This document shows positions 20,517 to 26,829 of a stretch of DNA of 38,232 bases, one piece after another. Every line of letters begins with the position of its first letter. Position 1 is the first letter of the stretch. Made by a program: the position numbers and the translations under genes. The notes below the pieces were generated by a model. The model was not told the DNA's origin and did no database searches. It saw only the letters and a program-made list of their open reading frames with translations. The DNA is from Clostridia bacterium (GTDB lineage: Bacteria; Bacillota; Clostridia; Christensenellales; Aristaeellaceae): positions 1 to 38,232 of the forward strand of contig JAUNJB010000008.1 of assembly GCA_030535375.1 (NCBI GenBank), read 5' to 3'.

Positions 20517-20556
20517 AAAAGAAGCTGTTTCGTCGGGGGACGAAGCAGCTTCTTTT
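20517..20556 (+). terminator. terminator of the S10-spc-alpha operon
   Basis: Bases 20517-20534 pair with 20539-20556 (18 bp with one wobble, GGGG loop), flanked by A4 upstream and ending in T4. It could work in both directions, and closes the 16-kb ribosomal unit. Confidence 0.93.
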
Positions 20557-20630: not shown

Positions 20631-22073
20631 ATGAACGACATGATTCTGATCCTCAATTATTCGGATGAGTTTTCGATGGAGACGGCGCGCAGACTGCGCG
20701 GGGAGCAGATATACAGCCGCATCATCAGCGGAATGACTACGGCCGCGCAGATCCGAGAGATTGCGCCGCGCGGCATCGTGCTCAGCGGCGAGGCATCGAG
20801 CGCGCAGGGCGTGTTTGACGCCGGAATCCTGGAGCTGGGCATTCCCGTGCTTGCGCTGGGGCATACGGTGCATATGATGCTGGCCGCCCAGGGCGGGGCG
20901 AGCGCGGGTGTGGCCATCAATGAGCGAAAGGCGTACATCGAATACGGCAAGAGTGCGCTGTTTGCCGGGGTGACGGGCGGGGAGCGTTACCTCAAGGAGA
21001 CGCTGACGCTGATGCTTCCGCCGGATGTGCAGGTGACGGCGAGCGCCTCCGGCTGCACAATCGCGTTTGAGAACACGGAAAAGAAGCAGTACGGCATACA
21101 GTTTGAGCTGGAGCGCAATGATCCGGAAGGCTCCGCGATTCTCAAAAACTTTGCGCGCGATATCTGCGGCTGCACAGCCTGGTGGTCGCTTGGCGCGGCG
21201 ATGCGCGAGGCGGAGCGAGCGCTCACGGAGGCCGCGGAGCAGGGCGGACGGGCCGTATGCGCCGTCAGCGGCGGCGTGGATTCCACGGTTGCCGCCGTGC
21301 TCACCCATCGCGCGTTTGGCGAGCGGATGACCGCCATCTTTGTGGAAACGGGGCTCATGCGCGAGGGTGAGGGCGCGATGGTCCAGCAGACGTTTGACGC
21401 GCTGGGCATCCCGCTGCTGCACATGGACCGATCCGGCGTGGTGCTTGAGGCGCTGGCGCACCGCCGAAGCATGAGGGAAAAGCGGCTGGTCGTGATGAAT
21501 TGCCTGCATGAGGAAATGATCCGCCAGACTGCGTCCATGCCCGAGGCGAAGACGCTCGTGCTTGGAACGAATTACAGCGACTTTCTGCACGGCGGCAGCA
21601 CATCCGACCGCTGGAACGACTGCGAAATGAACGTTCTGGAGCCGCTGGCCACGCTGTTCAAGGACGAGGTGCGGGCGATTGCCCAGCAGCTGGGCCTGGG
21701 CGCGGAGATTGCGGAGCGCAAGCCGTTCCCGGCGCTGGGCCTGGGCGCCCGGATGGTGGGCGAGGTGACGGGCGAGCGGCTGCAGGCGCTGCGCAGGGCC
21801 GACAGCATCTTTGATGAGGAAATCCGGCTGGCCGGACTCGACCGCAAGCTGTACAAGTATTTTCCAATCCTCACCAGCAGCGATCCGATCTCCGGCATCG
21901 AGATGATGATCCTGCGCGCGGTGACCGTCTCCGGGGGACAGCTGCTGCCCGCGCGATTGCCGTACGACCTGATTGAGCGCACGGTGCGGCGCATTTGTGC
22001 GGATGCACCGACGGTTGCCCGCGTGTTCTATGACGAGACGCCCACGCCTGTGGGCAAGGAGACGTTCACGTGA
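20631..22073 (+). CDS. divergent GMP-synthase-like protein with degenerate glutaminase domain
   Basis: This 480-residue protein has the GuaA layout: an N-terminal class-I glutamine amidotransferase-like domain (about 1-180), an ATP-pyrophosphatase domain with the P-loop SGGVDS (213-218), and a C-terminal dimerisation domain with LPYDLIERTVRRI. The amidotransferase half looks inactive. The nucleophile-elbow position (normally Cys in GxCYGMQ) is Gly77 in LALGHTVHMM, the catalytic His of FHPE is Glu159 in IQFELERN, and the SGGP oxyanion strand reads SGEA. The XMP-contacting motifs also differ: the SHHNVGGLP region reads GGSTSDRWND, PFPGPGL reads PFPALGL, and the KPPATIEWE terminus reads TPVGKETFT. 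It could be an ammonia-dependent synthetase or a paralog with another substrate. The ATG at 20631 follows GGAGG by 11 bases. Confidence 0.75.
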   Translation: MNDMILILNYSDEFSMETARRLRGEQIYSRIISGMTTAAQIREIAPRGIVLSGEASSAQGVFDAGILELGIPVLALGHTVHMMLAAQGGASAGVAINERKAYIEYGKSALFAGVTGGERYLKETLTLMLPPDVQVTASASGCTIAFENTEKKQYGIQFELERNDPEGSAILKNFARDICGCTAWWSLGAAMREAERALTEAAEQGGRAVCAVSGGVDSTVAAVLTHRAFGERMTAIFVETGLMREGEGAMVQQTFDALGIPLLHMDRSGVVLEALAHRRSMREKRLVVMNCLHEEMIRQTASMPEAKTLVLGTNYSDFLHGGSTSDRWNDCEMNVLEPLATLFKDEVRAIAQQLGLGAEIAERKPFPALGLGARMVGEVTGERLQALRRADSIFDEEIRLAGLDRKLYKYFPILTSSDPISGIEMMILRAVTVSGGQLLPARLPYDLIERTVRRICADAPTVARVFYDETPTPVGKETFT

Positions 22074-22098: not shown

Positions 22099-22135
22099 GA
22101 AGAGGCTGTGAAGCTACGGGCTTGACAGCCTCTTT
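22099..22135 (+). terminator. terminator after the GuaA-like gene
   Basis: Bases 22100-22109 pair with 22125-22134, with an inner AAGC/GCTT stem, and the 3' side runs into a short T-tract. It separates the GuaA-like gene from the purine cluster. Confidence 0.7.
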
Positions 22136-25942: not shown

Positions 25943-25987
25943 CGGGCGGAACGAAAAAGCGCGCTGGTTTGGCGCGCCGTCCGCCCG
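25943..25987 (+). terminator. large GC-rich hairpin between purN and the GNAT gene
   Basis: Bases 25943-25950 pair with 25980-25987 (8 bp), and inside it 25959-25964 pair with 25972-25977 (6 bp). There is no T-run, so it may be a processing stem or a 5'-leader structure of the next gene rather than a true terminator. Confidence 0.45.
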
Positions 25988-26013
25988 ATGCAATGAAGGG
26001 TGTCTTCCAGAAT

Positions 26014-26829
26014 ATGAGAATTTATCATCCCGTCAGGGGCGTGGGCGGTGCGCTGCGCGAGAACAGCTTCGCCATCATCGACGATGCGGGCGTGGAGATC
26101 GGCCAGGGAGGGCTGGAATTCCGGGTGCTCAAAAAAATGCTGCCGGACAGACCGCTGGATATTGAGATGAATATGAACGCGCATCCCATGGCCAGCGACA
26201 CGCTTTTTGGCGCGCTGAGCGCGCGGGCGGAGAGCATCAAGGACGAGCAGAAGGGCCTGCCCGCCCGGCTGTACACGCGCTGTGCCATCGACGATGCCGA
26301 GCGGCACGAGTATTTTACCCGCATGGGGTTTGACGACGTGGACGGCGACGAGCTGTTTGTTTTGCGCGTGCCGGCGGATATGAGCACCAGGCGGCGCAAT
26401 TACAGCCCCGTGGGCACCAAGGGGATCGATGTCGACCTGCGCACGCGCACCAGGCGCGAGGAGTTCCTGGTCAGCCTCAAGGAATTTGGCTGCGTGGAGC
26501 ACGCCAGCGAATGGCTGGAGGAGCGCATGAAGGACCCCGTGTTCATCGCGCGGGCGATGTACTACGGCAGCGACTTCGTGGGACAGATGCTGGTGACCGG
26601 CACGCAGAACGAGGCCGTGCTGGAGTTTGTGTGCGTGGAGCCCAAGTGGCGCGGCCGCGGTGTGGCCAGCGCGCTCGTCGACGAGGCGCTGATGCAGCTC
26701 TCCAGCCAGCATGTGCCGTATATGCGGGCTACTGCCGTGCGGCGCAATCAGAGCGCGATGCGCCTGTTCCAGCGCAGCGGCTTTGAGTGGGTGCGCACGG
26801 AGTGCTATCTGCTGGGGCGCGATCTGTGA
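26014..26829 (+). CDS. tandem GNAT-family N-acetyltransferase
   Basis: This roughly 271-residue protein contains two GNAT-like halves. The C-terminal half has the acetyl-CoA loop VEPKWRGRGVASALVDEAL and NQSAMRLFQRSGFEWV, both typical of active GNAT enzymes. The N-terminal half keeps a motif-B-like EYFTRMGFDDVDGDELF but no clear acetyl-CoA loop. The substrate is unknown. The start is uncertain: ATGs at 25993 and 26014 both lack a strong ribosome-binding site, which contrasts with all its neighbours. It sits between purN and purH but no link to purine metabolism is evident. Confidence 0.82.
   Translation: MRIYHPVRGVGGALRENSFAIIDDAGVEIGQGGLEFRVLKKMLPDRPLDIEMNMNAHPMASDTLFGALSARAESIKDEQKGLPARLYTRCAIDDAERHEYFTRMGFDDVDGDELFVLRVPADMSTRRRNYSPVGTKGIDVDLRTRTRREEFLVSLKEFGCVEHASEWLEERMKDPVFIARAMYYGSDFVGQMLVTGTQNEAVLEFVCVEPKWRGRGVASALVDEALMQLSSQHVPYMRATAVRRNQSAMRLFQRSGFEWVRTECYLLGRDL

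Follow-up and report, generated by a model that had tools for sequence, protein, structure and literature searches.

The closest described counterparts of the protein considered here are the guanosine monophosphate (GMP) synthetases (GMPS), for which a study of the Plasmodium falciparum enzyme (PMC10526850) records that the mutants K386L, H388A and H389A, together with mutants at Lys547 and Glu553, abolish or greatly impair GMP formation in both the NH4Cl- and the Gln-dependent reaction, both of which were measured for most of the mutants. Catalytically dead paralogs that regulate a live enzyme are likewise known, an example reported in PMC5201418 being the prozyme of trypanosome S-adenosylmethionine decarboxylase (AdoMetDC); PMC9312489 was also consulted, as was, for context, PMC3376133. 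Herein we describe a paralog of the two-domain GMP synthetase GuaA encoded in a 38,232-nucleotide stretch of DNA from a Clostridia bacterium (contig JAUNJB010000008.1, assembly GCA_030535375.1), the whole of which is hereafter called the window. The gene lies at 20631..22073 on the forward strand, to which all features given below also belong, and runs over 480 codons (480 aa) from an ATG at 20631 to a stop at 22073, with GGAGGGG directly 5' of the ATG. We tentatively regard its product as a pseudo-GMP synthetase.

Residues of the window protein were assigned by alignment with 22 canonical GuaA sequences, and residue roles in the P. falciparum (Pf) and Mj enzymes were taken from PMC10526850. 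Compared with the two-domain GuaA, the degenerate class I glutaminase-like domain (approximately residues 1-188; 20631..21194) has Gly77 in place of the nucleophilic Cys, Glu159 in place of the triad His, Glu54 in place of the oxyanion Gly and His81 in place of the glutamine-binding Gln (Gln93 in Pf), and it retains the triad Glu (Glu161). The synthetase half possesses an intact PP-loop SGGVDS (residues 213-218; 21267..21284) and retains Lys284, Asp317 (Asp371 in Pf) and Arg285 (Arg102 in Mj), the last of which is not general, being Arg in 12 of the 18 sequences of the genus subclade. The lid region (Asp317 to Pro338; 21579..21644) is shortened in the alignment and is devoid of IK(S/T)HHN, with Lys386, His388, His389 and Asn390 (Pf) all falling in the deletion; the Arg249 (Mj) loop is deleted as well, Glu374 (Pf) is replaced by His320, and Lys302, Glu308 and Glu310 (Mj) are replaced by Thr472, Thr478 and Thr480. 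The C-terminal KPPXTXEWE motif (KPPATIEWE in GuaA) has given way to PTPVGKETFT, a changed loop within the GMP_synt_C-like dimerisation domain (approximately residues 395-480; 21813..22070), which was delimited by the alignment and by a borderline PF00958 match (23.6 or 25.2 bits, and 27.7 with in-frame neighbours; cut-off 27). The preliminary description, made from the letters of the window, had named the same Cys and His replacements, the altered oxyanion strand, the intact P-loop and the changed XMP-binding parts, all of which were in agreement with the alignment, and the latter ruled out that the catalytic residues are kept in shifted positions. Because the lid and C-terminal residues are gone whose single mutation abolishes or greatly impairs GMP formation by the P. 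falciparum enzyme (PMC10526850), the window protein should make GMP by neither route.

The full-length paralog is 30% identical to the GuaA of its own genome, and its scores remained under the curated GuaA cut-offs (PRK00074, 276.9 against 400 bits; TIGR00884, 197.4 against 338.75 bits; TIGR00888, 74.9 against 172.15 bits). It differs from the standalone ATP pyrophosphatase (ATPPase; GuaAb) in that the latter keeps the XMP site, whereas the paralog keeps a glutaminase-like domain, and the two fall into separate tree groups. It was also far under the cut-off for NAD+ synthase (53.7 against 255 bits) and did not reach that for LarE (TIGR00268, 52.2 against 150 bits), and neither NAD synthetase nor LarE has a glutaminase-like half of the paralog's class.

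The first survey covered 60 relatives and the window's genome; nearly all genomes in this work are metagenome bins, and absences are therefore weak. The paralog was present in 20 of the 29 genomes of the genus (G000-G028), at 52-69% identity to that of the window, and 18 sequences made up the genus subclade alignment. Paralogs at 35-42% identity were carried by G031-G034, and a diverged one (L066) by G029, while a scan of species genomes added others from Candidatus Ventricola (L075), Pullichristensenella, Avichristensenella, Faecaligallichristensenella and Alectryocaccomicrobium. Removal of copies left 60 paralogs, to which nine were added from a sample of 151 genomes spanning the order, six from the window's family (ten genomes of which were sampled besides the window's) and three from family f23. 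The resulting 69, all from the same order, are not a census, as inspection covered just nine of the likely paralogs among the matches across the order, and they include two pairs more than 90% identical (L102/L103 and L122/L126). In an 80-row tree, a branch with 100/99 support set the 60 paralogs, all on one side of it, apart from the 12 canonical and the 8 standalone sequences; in a second, quicker tree without bootstrap, from which the long-branch rows L054, L055 and L066 were omitted, 66 paralogs (57 of the first 60 and the nine new ones) again lay on one side of a branch (SH-aLRT 99). The root between paralogs and canonical GuaA was assumed.

This separate, supported clade shares the losses seen in the window protein. 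The catalytic Cys, kept in 22/22 canonical GuaA, is Gly in 69/69 paralogs, and the triad His is lost in 68/69, being kept in L107. The triad Glu161 and Asp164 are each found in 69/69, Arg119 in 68/69 and Asn163 in 62/69 (His in the other seven), and Arg119, Asn163 and Asp164 each occur in at most one of the 22 canonical sequences; Gly77, Arg119 and Asp164 are thus newly conserved residues of the paralog family. The HHN of the lid remains in a single paralog (L110), the HHNVGG-type motif being present in 25/25 reference rows, and a strict KPPXTXEWE-type terminus in 2/66 (L098 and L110), less strict versions occurring elsewhere, for instance in L101. Across the 18 genus sequences, no invariant or near-invariant residue was found from Asp317 to Pro338, where the catalytic lid would be expected. 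Asp317 itself is present in 56/69. The P-loop Asp is lost in 11/69 (L050, L051, L054, L055, L066, L108, L115, L135, L137, L142 and L178), corresponding to six changes on the first tree and five on the second. Dimerisation-domain residues are retained in the paralogs as in canonical GuaA.

Several members appear to record intermediate states. L110 (4568-6082), a two-domain protein closest to canonical GuaA, has Gly for Cys and is without the triad His, and its synthetase half, with HHN and KPPATIEWE, scored 480.3 bits (TIGR00884 cut-off 338.75). L098 retains PFPGPGL and KPPASIEWE and is without the lid motif, which the remaining paralogs also lack, several of them being without the ATP site as well. 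This distribution fits a loss order of glutaminase, XMP site and then, in some branches, ATP site, the direction of which depends on the canonical rooting. Judged from its residues, L110 looks like a true ammonia-dependent GMPS, and its genome holds another GMPS besides.

The open gene had been taken to be under selection as a protein, and dN/dS values (ratios of nonsynonymous to synonymous substitution rates) well below 1 bear this out. A simple Nei-Gojobori count with a custom script gave whole-gene dN/dS values of 0.095-0.304 for 11 paralog pairs, the highest being that of the window gene and L033, and 0.211 for a canonical control pair (L070/L072). Values of 0.095-0.139 came from the three pairs that lack the P-loop Asp, and the paralog is hence under purifying selection in these pairs, too. 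The values for the whole gene, the glutaminase-like half and the ATPase half were 0.135, 0.086 and 0.158 in L050/L051, 0.095, 0.099 and 0.097 in L108/L135, and 0.139, 0.140 and 0.125 in L108/L115. None of the 20 genus copies has an internal stop. The paralog evolves faster than its neighbours, with 52-68% identity to the window within the genus against 81-97% for rpoA.

Most genomes with the paralog also hold a true GMPS. A search of the rest of the window's genome found a canonical guaA (C87), which rules out the paralog as its only GMPS. Among the 20 paralog-bearing genus genomes, 18 possess another synthetase half above the TIGR00884 cut-off, and G018 has a contig-edge GMPS fragment (140.8 bits), the glutaminase half of which passes TIGR00888. 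By type, two-domain GuaA was found in 13/20 (G018 being counted through its fragment) and a standalone ATPPase only in 6/20. A non-paralog match above the TIGR00884 cut-off was found in 29 of the 35 other paralog genomes, the remainder having fragments only (G078, G080 and G087) or nothing comparable (G062, G071 and G077), and a further check gave a match above the cut-off in 11 of 14 genomes, the other three (G021, G095 and G171) showing the paralog only.

The genomes whose sole GMPS-type match besides the paralog is an ATPPase lacking a glutaminase domain, and in which all guaA_Nterm matches stay under the cut-off, were G002, G003, G005, G007, G009, G015, G016, G019 and G023 in the genus and G043, G044 and G046 in other families. 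The standalone ATPPases inspected keep the XMP motifs (for example L057, L060, L061 and L069), and GMP synthesis that depends on ammonia may be widespread in the order. L064 and L065, from genomes outside this list, have a truncated glutaminase remnant.

The explanation that we favour, to which we give slightly less than an even chance, is that neofunctionalisation has turned the paralog into a pseudo-GMP synthetase, a pseudoenzyme whose role is regulatory or lies in ligand binding. A GuaA duplicate would first have lost its glutaminase and next its XMP site, with the ATP site following in some branches. Throughout this decay its two-domain fold was kept, as was the dimerisation subdomain, and it would now act, most likely as a dimer, by binding a ligand or by regulation. 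The former glutaminase pocket (Gly77, Arg119, Glu161 and Asn163-Asp164) could have become a putative site with no catalytic role; ATP or AMP may be bound at the ATP site, the P-loop of which the window's subclade retains in perfect form. In a more specific and somewhat unlikely version, the paralogs would be a pseudoenzyme family of an undescribed kind, a nucleotide- or amino-acid-sensing regulator in which the dead glutaminase pocket (Arg119, Glu161 and Asp164) has become a new conserved sensor, kept even where the ATP site died. Purine metabolism is our leading guess for the process served.

Several observations weigh against this explanation. SGGVDS, Lys284 and Asp317 are each found in 18/18 of the window's subclade, Lys284 even in 69/69 paralogs, and the C-terminal loop of the subclade keeps Glu477 and Phe479, all of which fits an active enzyme. 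The glutaminase-like half is under the tighter constraint in L050/L051, a result in favour of the explanation, but not in L108/L135 or L108/L115. Paralogs L094, L096, L098, L099, L101 and L110 and that of G033 pass the TIGR00884 cut-off, so that some members are less remote from GMPS than that of the window, and the boundary between the paralog family and GMPS is gradual. The paralog is dispensable, none being seen in 9 of the 29 genus genomes, and in G002, G015 and G022 rplQ is followed directly by a GNAT gene with no paralog between them. Moreover, G021, G171 and G095, at 94-99% completeness, possess the paralog and gave no other GMPS in our searches, and all three carry an inosine monophosphate (IMP) dehydrogenase; the missing GMPS may reflect gaps in the bins, or its absence may be real.

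The same conserved ATP site underlies the main rival, a less probable though substantial contender in which the paralog is an N-type ATP pyrophosphatase that has taken on a new substrate: the window's subclade would adenylate another acceptor and use free ammonia or another nucleophile, the P-loop Asp losses elsewhere being secondary. The adenylation of another substrate had already been raised in the preliminary description, and it stands as possible for the window's subclade, but in the family the P-loop Asp is gone from 11 of 69 members, and three pairs of this sort are under purifying selection. Furthermore, the lid has lost the Lys and His on which adenylation by GMPS depends and contains no conserved residue in their place. 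The other half of the earlier proposal, an ammonia-dependent GMP synthetase, draws on the glutaminase-less GMPS of these genomes and on L110, whose dead glutaminase and intact synthetase half suggest that the family may have passed through such a state. The window gene, however, is without the lid and C-terminal XMP residues, falls far below the TIGR00884 cut-off and shares its genome with a normal GuaA, and this proposal is thus very unlikely for it, the least probable of those weighed here.

It is rather improbable that the paralog acts as a prozyme-type subunit forming a mixed dimer with the true GMP synthetase of its genome and tuning it. The AdoMetDC system, as reported in PMC5201418, offers the likeness of a dead duplicate beside a live enzyme, albeit a different enzyme. 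The dimerisation-domain residues common to the paralog and canonical GuaA would suit such a dimer, as would Arg464, the equivalent of the trans-acting Arg294 (Mj), which is Arg or Lys in 59/60 paralogs, even though none of the 18 genus-subclade sequences retains its partner Glu308. Against such a dimer, the alignment has a gap at the second trans residue, Arg249 (Mj), in 47/60 paralogs, and the paralog coexists with a two-domain GMPS in some genomes, with a standalone ATPPase only in others and with none found in G021. Decay of a functionless gene would be in keeping with its fast evolution relative to rpoA and its patchy presence in the genus, but this is highly improbable in view of the low dN/dS and the lineage-wide new conserved residues, and the open frames of the 20 genus copies together with the low dN/dS disfavour a pseudogene.

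The surroundings of the gene were also compared. A hairpin ending TTCTTTT after rplQ (20517..20556; 18 pairs, fold z -6.2), which resembles an intrinsic terminator and was absent from a simple scan, sets the paralog apart from the ribosomal unit. A strong terminator-like hairpin follows the paralog (22100..22135; fold z -2.9 for the stretch), in accordance with the earlier statement that the gene has its own terminator. Flanked by these two hairpins, the paralog probably forms its own transcription unit; in the window, hairpins separate it from both rplQ and purE, the latter being provided with a promoter-like site of its own. Clustering placed rplQ directly upstream of the paralog in 18/20 genus neighbourhoods, L037 and L047 having rpoA upstream and no rplQ found. 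A GNAT-family gene (25969..26829), separated from the paralog in the window by purE-F-M-N, adjoins it in several genera, lying within 4.5 kb in 26/60 loci and within 350 bases in 22/60. Only the second half of the GNAT protein matches Pfam GNAT families, and the protein is perhaps a tandem.

At E 1e-10, the GNAT protein had a match in 23/23 genus genomes (G000-G022) and in 0/14 genomes of other families, and 7 of these 23 show no paralog, which weakens GNAT as an obligate partner. Among paralog-less genomes, the order was rplQ-GNAT-dapA in G002 (contig end), rplQ-GNAT-dapA-dapB-dapD in G015, rplQ-GNAT-dapA-dapB in G022 (contig end) and purE, purM, purN, GNAT, purH, purD, dapA in G001; in G004 and G020, other genes stand between rplQ and GNAT. 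These linkages are hence independent of the paralog. Membership in a purine operon, attractive at first, is weakened by such clusters and by the flanking hairpins, and the earlier suggestion of nucleotide metabolism from gene position is accordingly weak.

Better hints came from other lineages. A MazG-like gene lies directly upstream in 8/60 loci, including L110, and one gene further in L099, its identity being confirmed by Pfam for one protein (L105). In G104, the nearest sister lineage, joined to the genus clade with an SH-aLRT of 98, a gene for IMP dehydrogenase (978.5 bits to NF005493; cut-off 585) stops 124 bases short of the paralog's open frame and is the sole strong match of its kind in this three-contig genome. 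The context thus hints at nucleotide metabolism, suggestively rather than conclusively, and diaminopimelate amidation, from the dap neighbours, is a weak lead. A profile match identified LarB as the immediate upstream neighbour of the L099 paralog, and the diverged GuaA paralogs L179 and L180 of family f23 lie, by eye, near larE/larB/larC-like genes. A gene glycosidase-like by eye (about 520-680 aa) lies directly upstream in L107, L118, L122, L126 and L133 and about 290 bases off in L093. Other neighbours were named by eye, and we take them to be a CHAP-type hydrolase, DapA/B/D/F, PurD, a dipeptidase, LarC and LarE, the glycosidase-like proteins being presumed likewise. A riboswitch search gave none in the window, and in nine relatives only raiA RNA and tRNA, the raiA RNA lying at L180:4649-4855 (175.5 bits). 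The PADLOC models, which cover PADLOC-modelled systems only, gave no match to the paralog at E 0.01.

Among the literature matches listed, whose scope leaves out most subscription journals and bioRxiv, no description of such a GuaA paralog was found. Annotation by homology only may label these paralogs as GMP synthase. Within a single group of Clostridia from the gut and the environment, they appear to provide a natural series in which an enzyme under continued selection loses first its glutaminase, next its acceptor site and, along several branches, finally its ATP site, and this series of losses under selection makes it directly testable what a dead amidotransferase is kept for.
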